This document shows positions 6,290-36,639 of a DNA stretch of 64,000 nucleotides, piece by piece. Each line of letters opens with the position of its first letter. The stretch's first letter is position 1. This DNA comes from Myxacorys almedinensis A (GTDB lineage: Bacteria; Cyanobacteriota; Cyanobacteriia; Leptolyngbyales; Leptolyngbyaceae). The notes under the pieces were generated by a model. The model did not search any database and was not told where the DNA came from. It saw nothing but the letters and a program-made list of their open reading frames with translations. Where the stretch lies: positions 1 to 64,000 of the forward strand of contig NZ_WVIE01000009.1 of the NCBI RefSeq assembly GCF_010091945.1, read 5' to 3'. A program made the translations under genes and the position numbers.

Positions 6290-6691
6290 TTACACGTATC
6301 CCAATCACAGTCACAAATCAAACATCATTATGACCGCAATTTTTGGTTAGGCACGATCTTTTGCAGCCGCCCTTGCGATCGCAAAACGTGGGCAGGGAAA
6401 ATCTACCTAAAATGCTGGATTGAAATCCTATCAGCACAGGGTTCTTCAACGGATAACCCACACCGGAAACAGCATCTTTCTTAAGATAGATAGCTATTTG
6501 GGTAAGACTATTTGAAATTTATAAAGATAAAGGACTTTATACTTCATAAAGTTCTTGACAGCATGTTCAATCATCAAACCGTTAGATAATAAACCGATAG
6601 GCAATCCCATAGATAATTCGCCAGATGAAACCCTGCATAGCCGTGGTAAGACCCTGCAAGCAAAATATTTTTTACGAAGAGAAACGAAAGC
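6290..6691. other. divergent intergenic region upstream of the hybrid kinase
   Basis: About 400 bases between divergent genes, so it should carry both promoters. A TTGACA at 6555-6560 looks like a -35 box, but no good -10 follows at 16-18 bases. ACCCTGCA occurs twice at about 6632-6658, just before the kinase. No gene or RNA was recognised. Confidence 0.5.
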
Positions 6692-9600
6692 ATGAGTGTA
6701 GAGCAACAAGAGGCAATTTCTGAAAGGCTTTTTGCAGGCGGCGGCGAGATGGGCGCGCTGATGCAAGCTCAGGATTGGTCGCAAACCCGGCTTGGTGCTG
6801 TTGAGCACTGGTCGCAGAGTTTGAGAACAGCAGTGCGAATTATGCTGACCTCTCAACAAGCCATGTTTGTTTGGTGGGGCGAAGACCTAATCAATCTTTA
6901 CAACGATGCCTATCGAGCCATTCTCGGTGGCAAACATCCAAAAGCGCTCGGTCAGCCTGCGGCTGAGGTATGGCGAGAGATTTGGGATCAGGTTGGTCCT
7001 CGTGCAGAATCGGCACTGCGTCAGAACGAAGGCACCTACGACGAATCGTTGCTGCTGATTATGGAGCGCAACGGCTACCCAGAGGAAACCTACTATACGT
7101 TCTCGTACAGCCCTATCCCAGATGATGATGGCAGCACAGGCGGCATCTTCTGTGCCAACACCGACGATACTCAACGCATTATTGGAGAGCGTCAGCTAGC
7201 GCTGTTAACAGAACTGGCAACCAAGACAGCCGATGCACGCACCTTTGATGAAGCTTGCACCCTGAGCGCAACCTGTCTGGCAACCAATCCTTACGATCTG
7301 CCGTTTGCCATGATTTATCTGGTTGACCCAGATCAGCAAATCATTTCTCTGGCAGGAACCTCTGGCATTACGCAGGACGCTGCGGCAGTTCCTGAAACCG
7401 TTGCTTTTAATCAGCCTTCAGCTTGGCGGTTTGGGGAGGTGCTTAGCACCCATCAACCCTGTTTGATCTCTGATTTAGAGGCGCAATTTAGCCATCTGCC
7501 AACCGGGGCTTGGCATCAATCGCCGCATCAAGCGATCGCAGTGCCGATTGCGCCATCTGGGGAGACGGGGAAAGCAGGCATCCTTGTGGCGGGTCTAAAC
7601 CCATTTCGGCTATTCGATCATAGCTATCAACAGTTTATCGATCTGGTTGCGGCTCAAACCGCAGCGAGTGTCGCCAATGCCCAGGCGTATGAAGAAGAAC
7701 GCAAACGAACCAAGGCACTCGCAGAACTCGATCGCGCCAAAACTGCATTTTTTAGCAATATCAGCCACGAATTTCGTACCCCCCTAACGTTGATGCTAGA
7801 TCCCCTAGCTGAGACGTTGAGCCGACTAGATGGGCAACTTCCGCCATCCGAGCGGGAGCAGTTGCAGATGGTGCAGCGCAATGGGCAACGGTTGCTAAAG
7901 CTCGTCAACACCTTGCTCGACTTTTCCCGCATCGAAGCAGGGCGCATTCAGGCAACGTATCAGCCCACCGATTTAGCAACGTATACGATCGAACTTGCCA
8001 GCGTCTTTCGTTCGGCGATCGAACGGGCAAATCTGCGCCTCGTGGTCGATTGCTCACCGCTTTCGTCACCCGCCTGGGTCGATCGCGAGATGTGGGAAAA
8101 AATTGTGCTGAATCTCCTCTCCAATGCGTTTAAATTTACGATCGCAGGAGAGATTGCAGTAATTTTGCGAGAAGGCAATAACCAGATTGAGTTAGAGGTA
8201 CGAGACACGGGCACGGGCATTCCCGCCGCAGAGCTACCCCGCATTTTTGAGCGGTTTCATCGAGTGCGAGGAGCCAAGGGACGCACCTACGAAGGCTCTG
8301 GCATTGGGCTATCGCTGGTTCGAGAATTGGTGCTGCTGCATGGAGGAACGATCGAGGTCAGGAGCGTTGTAGATCAGGGATCGCGTTTCATCGTCTCCAT
8401 TCCGGCAGGATCTGCCCACTTGTCCCCAGAGCGGCTCGACGCCACCCGTGCCCTTGTCCCGGTGGCAACAGGGACTGTTCCTTATGTAGAAGAAGCCTTA
8501 CGCTGGCTGCCAGAGGAGGATTTTGGAGCGCCGATTTTAGATTTTAGAGTAGAGCCTACGAGGGCAATCACCGATCCGGCTCACCTGAGGCGACAGCCTG
8601 ATCCCTCCCAACCTGAGAGCCGACCTCCAACATCAAAAATTCTTTTGGTCGATGACAACACCGATATGCGCGATTATGTGAGGCGGTTGTTGGTGGATCA
8701 AGGACATACAGTAGAAACGGCAGCCAATGGCAGGGCTGCGATCGCACTTCTCAAACACCTGCCCGACCCCCACCACCTGCCGGATCTGATTCTCACTGAC
8801 GTGATGATGCCTCACCTCGATGGCTTTGGGCTATTGCGGGCGTTGCGGGCAGATGCAGCCACCAGAGATCTGCCGATTATCTTGCTGTCTGCCCGGGCAG
8901 GAGAAGAAGCCCGGATTGAGGGGTTGTCAGCCGGAGCCGACGACTACTTGACCAAGCCATTTTCTGCCCGTGAACTGCTAGCACGAGTAGAAGCCAACCT
9001 GAAACTGGCGCAAGTGCGGCGCGCCGCCATGCAGCAAGAGCAAGCCCTGCGCCTAGAAGCCGAAACCGCACAGCAGACGGTCGAAATGATTTTGTCGAGC
9101 ATCAGCGACAGTTTTGTCGTGCTCGATCGCGACTGGAATTTTACCTACGTCAACGATCGCTACTGCAAAACTGTTGAGATGGAGCGAGACGCGCTGCTGG
9201 GGCATAGCGTTTGGGAACTCTTTCCCGATGCCGCCAACACCGACGTTCATATTCAACTTCAGCGATCGCTAGACGAGCAAACCCCCGTGCAGTTTGAGTG
9301 GTTTTTCCACGCTTGGAATCGCTGGTTTGAGTACCGGGTTTACCCATCACCTAGTGGATTAACCATTTTTCTGTGTGAAATTACCGATCGTGTGCAGGTC
9401 GAGCACGAACGCCGCCAAACAGAGTCAGCCTTGCATGAAAGCGAGGAACGCCTACGCTTGACGCTAGCAGCCGCCAACCAGGGCTGGTATGACCTGAATG
9501 TGCAAACGGGCGATACGATCGTCAGCCCCGAATACGCCCAAATGCTGGGCTACGACCCCGCCACCTTTCAAGAAACAAACGCCAAGTGGCAAGAACGGTT

Positions 9601-31429: not shown

Positions 31430-34400
31430 TTAGGTATCGTCTTCTGCCTGTTGAATCCAGTCATCCATTTCAGAAAACGAACTGCATCCTGTAACCTCCA
31501 TCAAGGTTTGTAGCAGCGATTGATCCCGCTTTTCCCATTCTGCAAAGATCGCGTTTCGCCCGTCTTGGGGTGGAAAATATTTGTAGACACGCGGACCACC
31601 ACGACGCCCATCTGCCGCTACATCTCGCCCAGTACAGGTTAGTTTGACACCAATTTTACCGAGTAACGCTTGCGAGAGTGCCATGGGCGCTTGTTTTTTG
31701 GTGACTGTGATGCCGAAGAGCGTTTTTATATCTTCTCGGCACTCTAAGGCTTGGGCAGCAATAAATTGAACCAGTTCATCGGTTGCCCGAATTTTTTCAC
31801 CAGGTGTGAGAAATTCGAGCACTCGAAATAGTTTCAAGGCTTCTACCTGAGCCGTTAGCAGTTTCACATCTTGCAGTGCAATCTTGCCGTTACCGCGTTC
31901 AAGATGTTCTTCTAACTCTTGCATGTCGTGTAGCCTTACAAAATCTGGATCATGCGTCAGATAGTAATGCAATCGTAATTGCGTATACCACCCATTGTCA
32001 TCTTTAAGTTTTAGTTCGGGAGTAACGTTGGTTGTAGCATAACGTTTTTGCAACTCATGCTTGTATTTACTGTTGCGATGTTGAGTTGATTGATTGATTT
32101 GCTTCTTGATTTCGTCGTATTCTTCGGAAGTAATTTCTGGGGAATCAGACACTGCGATCGCTTCTGCGGTTTGGTTACGAGTCCGAATCGCGGCAACCAA
32201 TTGAGCAATTTGCTCTGCGGCTTGAGCGTCGTGCCGCCAGCCCAAAAATTCAAATCCTGCAACCTGCAACGTTCCGGATGTCAAATCGTGATGCATCTGT
32301 TCAGTGACGGGCTGACCCAATATTTTTTCTGCGTCATCTGTGATCGTCGTAACGTCGTGACCTTCGAGCAGCAAGCCATTTCGCAATTCTTGGCGGTAGC
32401 GCCACAGTGAGGCATTGACTCGTGCCGCCATTTTTGCCCAGGTTCGCAGCGCGATCGGATCGCTTTGTTCATCTAAATCAAAATCAACGTCCTTGAGCAA
32501 TGAGACATTGTATCGCACCGCTTTTGTCATAGATTGAGCAACATCGCGGTAGTAACAGCTTCCATTGCCAATTTTTCCGTGCCCAAAATGGGCAGCCCAC
32601 ACGTATCGCGGAACCGCTTCTCGGACGCGCGCCAAGGCTTGACGAGACTCACAATCAGGGGTTACGCCTTGAAAGATTCCGAATACAGCTTTGAAATGCC
32701 CACGCACATCAATGGAAACACCAGTGCCAATGGTGGGAGTTGCTAACACTACATCATATTGAGTAACAACATCGTTAATGCGATCAGCAATTCGATAAGC
32801 AGCATGATGAGGATCAGAAACTGTCTCGCTATCAATTCTGAGAATACGCTTCTGAGGAAATTGGAGTTTCAAATACGTTTCTAAATTTCTAGAACTCCAG
32901 CGCCCTCGAACCTTCTGAGAATCGAGACAAACAAAGGCTGCCCCTGTTGCTAAGACTTGCTCCATTCGAGTGAGCAGTGGGGAAGGGTTTCTCGTGTCGT
33001 AAAGCGATACATCCCACGCCACATCCGGTTTCCAGTCGTTGACCACGAGCCAAGGTACAATTGGCAGATCGGATAAGCCTTGAAGATAGTCAATGCTAAC
33101 ATCCGACAAATCAGCATCTTGTGCAACGATCAGCCCCCCTGTTGACAACACAATTTCTACCAGTTCCTTCAGCGTTTCTAAAATTTTGACGCGCTGAGTG
33201 TAGCAGGTGGCGCTGTTGAGGGCATGCCATAATACTTGTTCAACTTCGTCGAGAATAACGATCGCACCTTCCCATTCTTCAGGGTTAAACCGTGCTTTCG
33301 AGTGAGGATGCAACGAATCAACGCACAGCCCATAGCCTCGTACGCCTTGGCTCTCCTGAAGTTCTTCGAGCCAGCCTAGCCCTAAGCTTTGACAGATCGA
33401 TTTGCCAAGCTGAATACGGTGAGTGATCACCAAAACTTTTCGATTTTGGGTGATGGCAGTTTGAAGCAGTTGCTCTAGGGCTGTCGTTTTGCCTGTTCCC
33501 TTAGCGCTCTTGATACACGCCAATCCTGACTCTGGATACGACAATTTACCTAGAAACGATTGATTCAACGTCATGCTAGGAACATGGGTGAGTGACCAAA
33601 GCCGTGACGCTTGCCAAAACTCTAACTCGATCGCCGTATCGTAGAGGTTACTAAAGTCAGTTGAATGGCGAGCAACAACGAAGTCGTCAACGCCTTTTTC
33701 AGGTCCTGGTAACGTGATGACTTTAACGGCGCAACCTGAATGAGTCAGCAATTGCCCAAAGCGCGATATTGCTAAAAAGATATTTTTTAAGGTTCTCGGC
33801 TTTGTTTCATAGTCAAAACAGATGTTGACCGATCGCCCTTCGGTTGCAAAAAAGGCGAGTTCTGCGATCAGGTGGCGAGTCTCACGACGATAACCACTAA
33901 AAATGCCAGGCAGCGCGATCGCAGCATAGCCCAAGCTCAGCAAGCATCCTGCCTTCTTTTCCCCCTCAGTTATGGTAATGGGGATATTCGTTTTCCAAAC
34001 CCACTCCCAAAAATTGGCGCAGTCTTGTTCTGCCGTTTGAATATTCATCCCGTAGCGATTTGCCACTTGCTCCCATGTGTGACGGGGCACAGCCAACAAC
34101 ACTAACCGGCTTGATCCTTTGCCCAAAGACGGACTGAGATATTTTGCTGGCTTCTGTTTCTGCCGATCCAACACAGGGGTATCAGCATCGGGTTTAAATC
34201 GTCCCCAACTCATGCGCTGCCAGTTGTCGAACGGATCAAGCCCACTGACCCACCAGCCCCGCACGGTTTTTCGGGCTTGCTGCCCAAATCGGGTGATGTT
34301 CCAATTTAGAGCTTGAGCGATCGGGTAGGACACTTCACGAGTACAGGGATCAACCTCTGTATCGTGCAGGGTTCGCACGTTTAGACCTACGATCGCAGGA

Positions 34401-34552
34401 TCTACGCCGCTTGCTCGCCATTCTTGTTCATGATCGGCATCTAGAAAAAAGGGGTCTGTCTGAGGGGTTGATGAGCTAAGAGTTTGAGATAAATTAAGAG
34501 TTTGAATCGATGAAGCCGCTCCCGCAGGAGCAGTTCTGAGGCTAGAAACCAT
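31430..34552 (-). CDS. plasmid-type replication protein, CyRepA1-like (DUF3854 + helicase)
   Basis: A 1040-residue protein. The N-terminal part (about 45-310) has the DUF3854 Toprim/primase-like region (ITITEGEKKAGCLLSLGY, NICFDYETKP). A P-loop motor follows (Walker A KGTGKTTALEQ near 351, Walker B AIVILDEVEQVL near 432, TPTIGTGVSID and an arginine-rich QALARVRE motif later), then a basic C-terminal domain. This is the layout of cyanobacterial CyRepA1 plasmid initiators, such as the pSYSA type. The ATG at 34552 has AAGGAG eight bases upstream. It diverges from a second possible initiator across an iteron-bearing gap. Finding it amid chromosomal housekeeping genes is unusual. Confidence 0.85.
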   Translation of the reverse strand: MVSSLRTAPAGAASSIQTLNLSQTLSSSTPQTDPFFLDADHEQEWRASGVDPAIVGLNVRTLHDTEVDPCTREVSYPIAQALNWNITRFGQQARKTVRGWWVSGLDPFDNWQRMSWGRFKPDADTPVLDRQKQKPAKYLSPSLGKGSSRLVLLAVPRHTWEQVANRYGMNIQTAEQDCANFWEWVWKTNIPITITEGEKKAGCLLSLGYAAIALPGIFSGYRRETRHLIAELAFFATEGRSVNICFDYETKPRTLKNIFLAISRFGQLLTHSGCAVKVITLPGPEKGVDDFVVARHSTDFSNLYDTAIELEFWQASRLWSLTHVPSMTLNQSFLGKLSYPESGLACIKSAKGTGKTTALEQLLQTAITQNRKVLVITHRIQLGKSICQSLGLGWLEELQESQGVRGYGLCVDSLHPHSKARFNPEEWEGAIVILDEVEQVLWHALNSATCYTQRVKILETLKELVEIVLSTGGLIVAQDADLSDVSIDYLQGLSDLPIVPWLVVNDWKPDVAWDVSLYDTRNPSPLLTRMEQVLATGAAFVCLDSQKVRGRWSSRNLETYLKLQFPQKRILRIDSETVSDPHHAAYRIADRINDVVTQYDVVLATPTIGTGVSIDVRGHFKAVFGIFQGVTPDCESRQALARVREAVPRYVWAAHFGHGKIGNGSCYYRDVAQSMTKAVRYNVSLLKDVDFDLDEQSDPIALRTWAKMAARVNASLWRYRQELRNGLLLEGHDVTTITDDAEKILGQPVTEQMHHDLTSGTLQVAGFEFLGWRHDAQAAEQIAQLVAAIRTRNQTAEAIAVSDSPEITSEEYDEIKKQINQSTQHRNSKYKHELQKRYATTNVTPELKLKDDNGWYTQLRLHYYLTHDPDFVRLHDMQELEEHLERGNGKIALQDVKLLTAQVEALKLFRVLEFLTPGEKIRATDELVQFIAAQALECREDIKTLFGITVTKKQAPMALSQALLGKIGVKLTCTGRDVAADGRRGGPRVYKYFPPQDGRNAIFAEWEKRDQSLLQTLMEVTGCSSFSEMDDWIQQAEDDT

Positions 34553-34686
34553 CAGGTTGTCTCCTTGGGGTTAGGCGTAAAATTGGTAGAAAAAATATGG
34601 GACTGGCACAGAACCAGAACACTTGATACAATTTTTGAACATAGAAATGTATCCCAATGACGTTGGGAGATTAAGGTTGTTTATGA

Positions 34687-34730
34687 CCCCTTGAGCCGAC
34701 TGTGGTAGGAACGCTCAGGGGGTTTTGCTT
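34687..34730 (+). terminator. rightward intrinsic terminator with no gene upstream
   Basis: Stem CCCCTTGAGC (34687-34696) against GCTCAGGGGG (34713-34722), about 10 bp with one mismatch, then TTTTGCTT. The only upstream sequence on this strand is the complement of the rep gene and its leader. The terminator therefore implies a short plus-strand RNA antisense to the rep 5' end. Confidence 0.65.
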
Positions 34731-35010
34731 ATGCCGTAGTCAATGGAGCTAAGGAATGAAACTATAGACGATGGAAAAGGTGCAGCTTAGAGGCAACCTG
34801 ATCTGAACTTGTGGTAGAAAGCTCAGACTGCTGTTTGCTCTGGGTAAATGGCTGCCTGTTCAACTCCATGAGCCAACTCAATGGCTTAGCTCCGGTGGTT
34901 TAACCAAATCCAATTAGGATTGATGCGCCTCGAATGGTGGTAGACATCTTCGACGTTGTGAGAGATTAACACTGCAAATTAGCGATCGACAAGGGGGCTA
35001 ATTTAGCTAT

Positions 35011-35302
35011 ACGCAAAAGTTATAGGACAAGCATCCGCCAGCGTTACAGGGAAATGATGAACGCTAGAGTTACGGCGTCAGAAGCTTTTTTCTTAAAGTA
35101 TTCATTCACGCCGCCACAAGTCAAATCCACCGAAAAACCTGCGGGTGCACTGAGAAAGGATGCGCGATCGCACCCCCATTCCACGGTAAGATAAGACGCT
35201 CGTGTTACAGGTTGAGCGACATCTCCGCCGCCAAAGTTACAGCCTAAAAATAGCCGCGAAAGTTACAGGTAGCCAAGCAAAAATCGTACGCTGGCGTTAC
35301 AG
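35011..35302 (+). repeat. seven iterons, consensus MCGC-N4-GTTACAG
   Basis: Fifteen-base repeats begin at 35011, 35035, 35061, 35196, 35228, 35254 and 35288, all in the same orientation. The left half ACGC or CCGC is invariant apart from the first base. The right half is GTTACAG in five copies, GTTATAG in the first and GTTACGG in the third. Start-to-start distances within clusters are 24, 26, 32, 26 and 34 bases, with 135 bases between the two clusters. Such arrays are Rep-binding sites in iteron plasmids. Confidence 0.8.
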
Positions 35303-35358
35303 CAAAATAAGATTTATTTCCTACATCTAGCGAGTAGCACAGAAATTTAGACAAGTGG

Positions 35359-35422
35359 GACCCCAGATATAGCGTTTCACCTCTGGACAAATCAGGGAAG
35401 GTAAGGCACTATATGTGGGGTC
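35359..35422. repeat. 14-bp inverted repeat next to the iterons
   Basis: GACCCCAGATATAG (35359-35372) and CTATATGTGGGGTC (35409-35422) are inverted copies with one mismatch, separated by 36 bases. They lie between the iterons and the rightward initiator gene. They may form a cruciform or bind the initiator as an operator. Confidence 0.65.
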
Positions 35423-35437
35423 TTCAATTAATCAGCA

Positions 35438-35518
35438 ACCCCCATTCTTCACTCCTCTTACTTGTTTGCGTTTTCTAAAACTGTTTTAAGATTGACACCC
35501 CCATTCTTCACCCCTCTT
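35438..35518. repeat. 22-bp direct repeat upstream of the initiator gene
   Basis: ACCCCCATTCTTCACYCCTCTT occurs at 35438-35459 and 35497-35518 with one mismatch. The second copy ends 17 bases before the ATG. A third partial word (CACTCTTCACCC) follows it. These may be leader or operator repeats. Confidence 0.7.
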
Positions 35519-35535
35519 CACTCTTCACCCGATTA

Positions 35536-36639
35536 ATGCGTTACCCTAGCCGAGCCATGAACAACGTAGAGGCAACTTTTCCGGTTGATAGCCAACTCCT
35601 GATGGTCTTGCCCCGCGCCAGTGCATCGCTTCGCCATCCTGACGCTCAACCCCCCATCTTGCGATCGGATGCTGACGGCTACTACTTGGAGATGCGTGTC
35701 GAGGCAGACGCCACGGAAGAGAGCGAACTGGCACTCACCCGGCGCGTTCCGCTCGATCATCTATCGGCAGAAGCGTGGGAAGAACTCAAAACCGAATACG
35801 CCAAACTGGATTGGTCTGTCTGTGCAACCAAAGGCATGAGTAACGGCTTAGAAAACGTTCAGGATCGCAAAATTCAGCGTTTATTCATAGCACTGATAAC
35901 CTTCCTCAATCCACGTCAGGTGTCGATTGTTTTATATCTTTATAAATTAGCTGCCGAGCAGGGGACAGGGGCAACCGTAACGTTTCGCTCAAACGATTTG
36001 CTAGAACGGTTAGGATATACCCGTACCAAAGATGGCGGATTTGCCTCGAAGCTGCGATCGCAACTCCATTGTGATTTGGTTAACCTTCATCGCACCGAAT
36101 TAGTATTAGCTCAATCGTTTAGAAACCGTGATCAAAATCGTGCAGCTAAAGTCATGATCAAAAGCGTTTTACGCATCAAAGATTATGAAATTGACCACGT
36201 TCCGCGAGATTTTGATCTTGTTAAAGCCGCAGATTACACTTACGAGTTAGCCGATTCTTACACCCTTTCCCTAGAATTTTTCGACGGTCCAGCCCGGACT
36301 GGAGATTGTGTGTTTTTCTCGACTAGCTTTGATATCACTCAAAAACTGGGAAGCAATGCAAAGTCAGACTACAAAACAAAGCTGTTAGTGTATCTCGCGA
36401 GCCGCATGAAGTGGGATAGGCTACAAGAAGGGCAGTTTGTTTCGATTTCTAAGAAATATTTATTTAAAAACTTAGACTTGTTTGGTAGCAATTCTTCTCG
36501 AAACAACCAAATCTTTTGGCGTACGATCAACACTCTGAAACACGATGGTTACCTTCTGGGCGCGCAAGAGTTACCTGGAAAAAATAAGACTCCGACGATT
36601 CAGTTTCAGATTAATTTAGCCAAGCTGAAAGGAGCCTAA
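35536..36639 (+). CDS. putative winged-helix plasmid replication initiator
   Basis: A 367-residue basic protein, not firmly assigned. Residues about 105-240 (RKIQRLFIALITFL, FRSNDLLERLGYTRTKDGGFASKLRSQL) and about 255-350 (TKLLVYLASRMKWDR, FWRTINTLKHDGYLLG) look like two winged-helix units. That is the architecture of iteron-binding Rep proteins (Rep_3/TrfA type). Its position beside seven iterons supports that role. ATG 35536 is taken; ATG 35557 is possible. A HIP1-based terminator follows. The alternative is an accessory DNA-binding regulator of the neighbouring CyRepA1-like gene. Confidence 0.6.
   Translation: MRYPSRAMNNVEATFPVDSQLLMVLPRASASLRHPDAQPPILRSDADGYYLEMRVEADATEESELALTRRVPLDHLSAEAWEELKTEYAKLDWSVCATKGMSNGLENVQDRKIQRLFIALITFLNPRQVSIVLYLYKLAAEQGTGATVTFRSNDLLERLGYTRTKDGGFASKLRSQLHCDLVNLHRTELVLAQSFRNRDQNRAAKVMIKSVLRIKDYEIDHVPRDFDLVKAADYTYELADSYTLSLEFFDGPARTGDCVFFSTSFDITQKLGSNAKSDYKTKLLVYLASRMKWDRLQEGQFVSISKKYLFKNLDLFGSNSSRNNQIFWRTINTLKHDGYLLGAQELPGKNKTPTIQFQINLAKLKGA

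Follow-up and report, generated by a model that had tools for sequence, protein, structure and literature searches.

Several described replication systems share features with the locus analysed here. RepE of plasmid F and pi of R6K each have two winged helices, and their solved complexes with iteron DNA are among the best structural matches to the protein discussed below. In RSF1010, the iteron binder, the helicase, and the AEP primase are separate proteins (RepC, RepA, and RepB′). At the chromosomal scale, RctB acts at ori2 of Vibrio cholerae chromosome 2: this winged-helix initiator has its iterons arranged head to tail next to the gene that encodes it and serves a chromosome-sized replicon, and titration and handcuffing by iterons are described for this origin (PMC6090056).

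In cyanobacteria, the CyRepA1 replicon pSYSA of Synechocystis has a replication protein of the same family (NF042913) as one of the two genes considered here; its copy number is under the control of two overlapping RNAs, and the word “iteron” does not occur in the paper's text. Of 145 cyanobacteria examined, 80 have CyRepA homologs on the chromosome, according to an article that calls for validation of their function there (PMC10899382, 2024). Chromosome replication without DnaA is reported for some cyanobacteria, and in Synechococcus elongatus from which dnaA is missing, an integrated plasmid's origin became the one used for the chromosome (both PMC7198777).

The stretch analysed (the window: 64,000 nt of the filamentous cyanobacterium Myxacorys almedinensis A, contig NZ_WVIE01000009.1) contains seven copies of a 15-mer, MCGC-N4-GTTACAG, all on the plus strand and beginning at 35011, 35035, 35061, 35196, 35228, 35254, and 35288, in the gap separating ORFs 31430–34552 (−) and 35536–36639 (+). 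A sequence-only reading had described seven copies in one orientation, with two conserved blocks separated by a four-base spacer, in a non-coding gap between replication genes. The layout stands and so does the non-coding placement, the spacings (24, 26, 135, 32, 26, and 34) keeping no constant reading frame, but the copies are not uniform: those at 35035–35049, 35196–35210, 35228–35242, 35254–35268, and 35288–35302 are exact, while iteron 1 (35011–35025, ACGC-AAAA-GTTATAG; GTTACAG at the same place in the relative L007) and iteron 3 (35061–35075, ACGC-TAGA-GTTACGG) are each off by one base. There are five exact matches in the window, all on the plus strand (shuffled sequences: mean 0.10, maximum 1), and eight with up to one mismatch, seven of them within the array (mean 1.27; 0 of 100 shuffles reached eight). 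Coding repeats and chance are rejected as sources of the array.

In the genome-wide motif search proposed in the same reading, the exact motif occurs 13 times in the whole genome (4.96 Mb, 85 contigs), five times in the array and eight times scattered over eight other contigs; a reversed control pattern occurs five times. Within 3 kb around each of the eight outside copies, seven have no further copy with up to one mismatch and one (L071) has a single one. A DnaA box, usual though not universal beside the iterons of theta origins, was not found within one mismatch of TTATCCACA or TTTTCCACA across 34553–35560. Among the open-licence literature matches listed, no title or abstract beginning describes the array, and no title listed for GTTACAG with cyanobacteria concerns a replication origin.

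The gene following the array (35536–36639, +) is presumed to encode its iteron-binding initiator, a 367-aa protein, on the basis of predicted fold and conserved linkage. The protein has no match in Pfam or NCBIfam (E up to 1) or in PHROGs (E up to 0.01), and a 63-row profile of it found no PDB sequence (E up to 10); the initiator alignment (A1) omits L056, which has an internal stop, L062, and L064. An AlphaFold2 model built from 57 rows (pLDDT 84.3, pTM 0.86) consists of an N-terminal part followed by two winged helices, at about residues 111–218 (WH1) and 278–359 (WH2). Foldseek ranks domains 2–3 of RctB first (E 8e-7) and RepE second (E 2.4e-3) against this model. In a second structure aligner RctB leads with Z 12.9, followed by two complexes with iteron DNA, RepE54 (1rep; Z 11.8) and pi (Z 10.8); the ranking then drops to 8.1, the first unrelated row. 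The predicted fold is thus a tandem winged helix near those of RctB, RepE, and pi. Having no sequence match to the known families but their predicted fold and an associated array, the protein is filed as a new sequence family that would work as they do.

The initiator was found on six plasmids by tblastn and at 59 loci in a scan of genome contigs. In homologous loci, which the earlier reading had proposed to check for conservation, the array accompanies the gene: 46 of the 65 related loci have at least three copies of the window consensus (up to one mismatch) upstream of it, and none of the 65 has a copy on the opposite strand. When the right-hand block is instead defined locus by locus (L062, a fragment, being excluded from this count), 59 of 65 rows (64 loci and the window) have 3–12 copies upstream of the gene, with one or two other-strand matches in seven rows. 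The six that fall short are L006, L012, L031 (just 163 bp of upstream sequence to scan), L048, L058, and L065. In controls, this method reaches three copies or more in 5 of 650 shuffles and, on the downstream side of the gene, in 5 of 59 flanks; because of the downstream hits a few of its 59 rows may be false, and 46 of 65 is taken as the strict count. By the locus-specific scan L048 has no recognisable array, with a protein 68% identical, and none was recognised in the distant relative L006 (pCHRO.01). The latter plasmid has an annotated iscB (6573–7847) between a DUF3987 partner gene and the initiator gene, at the expected place of the array.

Spacing within the array is irregular but fixed across loci: 24, 25–26, 31–32, 25–26, 73–75, 25–26, 31–32, 25–26, 34, and sometimes a second 34. 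The full array has up to 12 copies, and a near-complete layout is found in 29 loci. Judged by these spacings, the window array is a thinned form of it. Copies 1–3 remain, and the four that follow, 135 bp on, would be copies 7, 8, 9, and 10 (starting at 35196, 35228, 35254, and 35288), as suggested by their spacings of 32, 26, and 34; L007, the nearest relative, retains the same seven. Since it is thinner than many (seven copies, with unlike middles), decay could be involved. Mean AT content in and just around the array is 0.57–0.62, vs 0.50 over the loci as a whole (29 loci), and no sharp conserved AT-rich opener was found across the 29 loci with near-complete layout.

The divergent gene at 31430–34552 (−) encodes a CyRepA1-family plasmid replication protein with a DUF3854 domain (NF042913, E 1.9e-134, 449.8 bits against a cut-off of 200; PF12965, E 5.1e-41). 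A divergent partner enzyme gene is present in 58 of the 65 rows, though of more than one kind: the nearest is primase-type in 37, CyRepA1-type in 20, and a DUF3987 protein carrying a DnaB N-terminal domain in one (L001), with none within limits in seven. Of 32 primase-type cluster members tested, all except one have DxD-type motifs; SGG-H residues are conserved in the cluster. A model of this partner matches CRISPR-associated Prim-Pol (Z 16.7) and, more weakly, RepB′; by predicted fold this commonest substitute is an AEP primase-polymerase. The cluster itself (L020:5398–7095 and relatives, 37 rows) is an unnamed family, for whose tested members Pfam and NCBIfam gave nothing convincing, and is the initiator's usual partner. 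On a quick tree that omits L060 and L061, and in which 19 of 58 inner branches are left open for low support, partner type changes eight times. This repeated swapping leaves array and winged-helix gene as the constant core, around which the replication enzyme is exchanged.

Both flanking genes had been considered candidate readers of the array in the sequence-only reading. The 35536–36639 protein keeps that place, as the presumed reader. CyRepA1 as the main reader is rejected: the array persists where CyRepA1 is replaced by unrelated enzymes, as in most loci, and it was seen in none of ten CyRepA1 loci lacking the winged-helix gene (five plasmid loci and five from a congener, the latter with short flanks, in loci of 3.5–5.3 kb), which yielded a lone near-match (L251). 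On two plasmids, from Oscillatoria (L250:1685–2929) and Stanieria (L254:1285–2733), similar helix-turn-helix genes lie just upstream of CyRepA1, and repeated 9-mers sharing ATTCGGAA precede CyRepA1 there, possibly a different iteron-type system.

The right-hand block differs among loci. It is GTGATAG in L044, L045, L046, L049, L050, L052, and L053 (59 of 65 copies exact, layout unchanged), GTTGCAG in L004 and L054 (20 of 20 copies), GTCACGG in L002 (5 of 6), and TTCACAG in L003 (8 of 8). Spacing is kept despite these switches, and the left block starts with ACG throughout, mostly ACGC; repeats in L005, whose protein is 29% identical, also begin with ACGC. The GTGATAG rows form a single clade (support 100) nested inside the GTTACAG rows and therefore count as one event. 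At least four block-type changes are needed on the quick tree, not all independent, since L002 and L003 are sisters.

Twenty-three alignment columns split the GTGATAG rows from 42 GTTACAG rows (L061 being omitted from the GTTACAG group in residue comparisons). Sixteen of these are in WH1 and one is in WH2, beyond its recognition helix. The separating residues cluster densely at 162–173, where the predicted WH1 recognition helix (171–186) begins, and the surrounding stretch 160–176 is nearly frozen in GTTACAG loci (entropy 0.15 vs 0.57 overall). Within this stretch, chosen after the GTGATAG contrast had been seen, lie 4 of the 18 residues distinctive of GTGATAG loci (binomial p 0.0015) and 8 of the 33 distinctive of GTCACGG (p 3e-6), with no enrichment for GTTGCAG (3 of 57, p 0.22) or TTCACAG (2 of 70, p 0.60). 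For control rows, hand-picked single rows amounting to 25 of the 42 GTTACAG rows, the figure is 11 of 387. T162S and G168S are common to the GTGATAG clade and the GTCACGG locus. The WH2 recognition region varies little. We infer, as a prediction from these alignments and the model, that WH1 would read the right-hand block and WH2 the ACGC block.

A mechanism can be proposed on this basis. The initiator would bind each 15-mer through both winged helices, WH2 reading MCGC and WH1 reading GTTACAG, roughly a helical turn further along, while the bases of the N4 spacer would hardly be read. Cooperative filling of the array would then open nearby DNA, and the partner (CyRepA1 here, a primase-polymerase elsewhere) would supply unwinding or priming. 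The sequence-only reading's suggestion that these are Rep-binding iterons gains from the linkage of array and gene in 46 of 65 loci, the absence of arrays from ten loci without the gene, the initiator-like predicted fold, and the WH1 changes that accompany two of four block switches. It is probable that the array represents the cognate iterons of the downstream winged-helix protein and that, with the divergent partner, they make up a plasmid-type iteron origin module, now chromosomal.

Between the window and L007, dN/dS is 0.065 for the initiator (dS 1.09) and 0.059 for CyRepA1. The same comparison finds 70 of 77 block bases identical, against 19 of 28 N4 bases and 119 of 225 in the remaining array region. 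By these figures the module is being kept by purifying selection, the two blocks being the best-kept part of the array.

Other elements flank the array. Immediately 5′ of iteron 1 is a box (34950–35010, −) that has, by eye, the look of a minus-strand promoter for the partner gene. It is identical to L007 at 51 of 61 bases, and similar sequence is found at the equivalent place in many loci, with weak column-by-column conservation across 42 loci. It was not flagged in a promoter scan; the promoter and terminator scans gave counts near chance (2 vs 1.1 expected, and 1 vs 1.3). Nearer the partner gene start, a hairpin at 34686–34723 (+) carries GTGGTAG in its loop and has counterparts in 26 other loci with both partner types (27 sequences, alignment A4, selected by ACTGTGGTAG, so that this part is constant by choice). 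Covariation is seen in its stem, where both bases have changed in 8 of 11 pairs, a level that none of 500 shuffles reached. Further GTGGTAG elements lie in the partner-gene leader at 34811–34817 (+) and 34937–34943 (+), and the motif occurs 35 times forward and never in reverse in 15 kb of gap sequence from 20 CyRepA1-type rows, which are mutually related. An Rfam search of 34400–35600 gave one match, treated as chance (E 3.5).

Between the array and the initiator gene is an inverted repeat (35359–35422, +) with 24-nt arms, 79% complementary (z −4.6 and −5.4 on the two strands). The stretch 35355–35425 is identical to L007 at 56 of 71 bases, with similar sequence in L011, L016, and L063. This repeat may be an autoregulatory operator over a promoter, and the flanking elements in general (hairpin with GTGGTAG, inverted repeat) are possible operators, attenuators, or primase start sites. 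The left arm contains ATATAGCG. A 22-nt direct repeat, 95% identical (35438–35459 and 35497–35518), lies shortly before the initiator start codon.

The genome has one initiator copy and one CyRepA1 above the cut-off, both in this locus. Its host contig (C85, 199,669 bp) also carries rpsU, malQ, and cobalamin genes. Nine of the ten neighbouring genes tested belong to ordinary families (for example rpsU, a TrkA channel, a kinase of phytochrome type, and RRM and pentapeptide proteins) and one is unmatched; none is an integrase, relaxase, or partition gene. The initiator gene is present in 30 of 42 genomes of the family, at one locus each; the 12 without it indicate that the gene is dispensable. 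It is absent from 9 of 37 good family genomes, and a phylum-wide sample has it in 5 of 386, this genome included.

In five near-complete relatives the module is single-copy and on the dnaN-bearing contig: in G410 it is on a single contig of 6,426,061 bp and in G402–G404 on contigs of 5.7–6.3 Mb, all four with dnaA and dnaN, and in G405 it shares its contig with dnaN. The module is chromosomal in these relatives. It is very probably so in the present draft genome, where its own contig is unclosed. The plasmid location expected of a CyRepA1 plasmid replicon was not found here, on evidence that for the window's unclosed contig is strong but indirect. The module is best read as a domesticated plasmid-type iteron origin, one that presumably once drove a plasmid.

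An ordinary origin is also recognisable, as five perfect TTTTCCACA boxes between the dnaN and dnaA matches on contig C5. The genome has a second, weaker dnaN match (G000:C38:9869–11050), with two TGA codons in frame. In the five relatives, pairs of DnaA boxes lie beside dnaN, and such pairs are also found elsewhere in those genomes. Between the module and the dnaN boxes lie anywhere from about 158 kb to 3.19 Mb, and a fixed relation to the dnaA origin was dropped for this inconstancy. GC skew has no clear switch within the window; sampled along G410 it has its minimum 0.5 Mb from the module (p about 0.05), and along G404 it has no trend (p 0.86). GC skew lends no support to origin use, with no clear switch in the window and no origin placed by the sampled skew of the two relatives.

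What the domesticated module does today can be read in several ways. That it starts replication on this chromosome is possible, the chances being somewhat below even. In that case it would be an active second origin, independent of DnaA and used regularly or under stress. Its single copy on the dnaN contig in five near-complete relatives and the purifying selection on initiator, partner, and both blocks speak for it, and the takeover in S. elongatus without dnaA by an integrated plasmid origin (PMC7198777) is a precedent. One argument against it is that a DnaA-box cluster already lies between dnaN and dnaA here, as box pairs lie beside dnaN in the relatives; others are the widely varying distance from module to dnaN boxes, and a skew minimum half a megabase off in one genome and trendless skew in the other. 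Selection on the module raises a difficulty of another sort for the proposal of a titration or incompatibility device, in which iterons on the chromosome would sequester or handcuff initiators brought in by related plasmids, since an initiator and partner of its own, kept under selection, would then be needless. The same site type does occur on plasmids of other cyanobacteria, and titration and handcuffing have the ori2 precedent (PMC6090056), but such a device seems unlikely.

Relatives of the module on plasmid records, two of six typed as conjugative, and the variation of neighbouring genes between locus groups would suit the remnant of a once integrated plasmid or element, which at times excises and replicates extrachromosomally. 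The ten neighbours, none an integrase, relaxase, or partition gene and nine from ordinary families, argue against this, and it is considered improbable. Equally hard to favour is a purely local role, with the initiator solely a transcription regulator of its own and its partner's gene: an array between divergent genes, with a box judged promoter-like by eye on one side and an inverted repeat on the other, has the layout for this, but up to 12 copies in one orientation, an RctB/RepE-type fold, and partner exchange among replication enzymes fit an origin better. The fullest version of the origin reading, in which this cyanobacterial family has a second, DnaA-independent origin on its main chromosome, built of a plasmid initiator of a new family, iterons, and an interchangeable partner, long domesticated and still able to start replication, is less likely than not.

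If true, a second origin would help to explain why DnaA is dispensable in some cyanobacteria. The module offers a concrete, testable candidate for an iteron origin on a chromosome: its presumed initiator and sites are both specified, and natural variation among loci yields predictions as to the residues that would recognise particular bases. The RepE/RctB fold group would gain a new sequence family, and cyanobacterial vectors a set of differing site specificities.

By fold and layout the module stands nearest to RctB/ori2 and to the initiators RepE and pi, and by partner to the CyRepA1 replicons. RctB is the best structural match to the initiator model, yet a PDB sequence search does not find it. 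The origin ori2 serves a separate chromosome and contains, besides a DnaA box, 11/12-mers and 29/39-mers (PMC6090056); the present module has two-block 15-mers at irregular spacing, in genomes that already have a DnaA-box origin. It differs from RepE and pi in having no Pfam match (E up to 1), a divergent partner as the usual arrangement (58 of 65 rows), and no DnaA box found. In pSYSA, the array is missing from the 9.8 kb around CyRepA1, where the winged-helix profile finds no match either. The likeness to RSF1010 lies in RepB′, which the primase-type partner weakly resembles; initiator and partner architecture are otherwise different, and here helicase-type and primase-type partners replace each other beside the same winged-helix gene.
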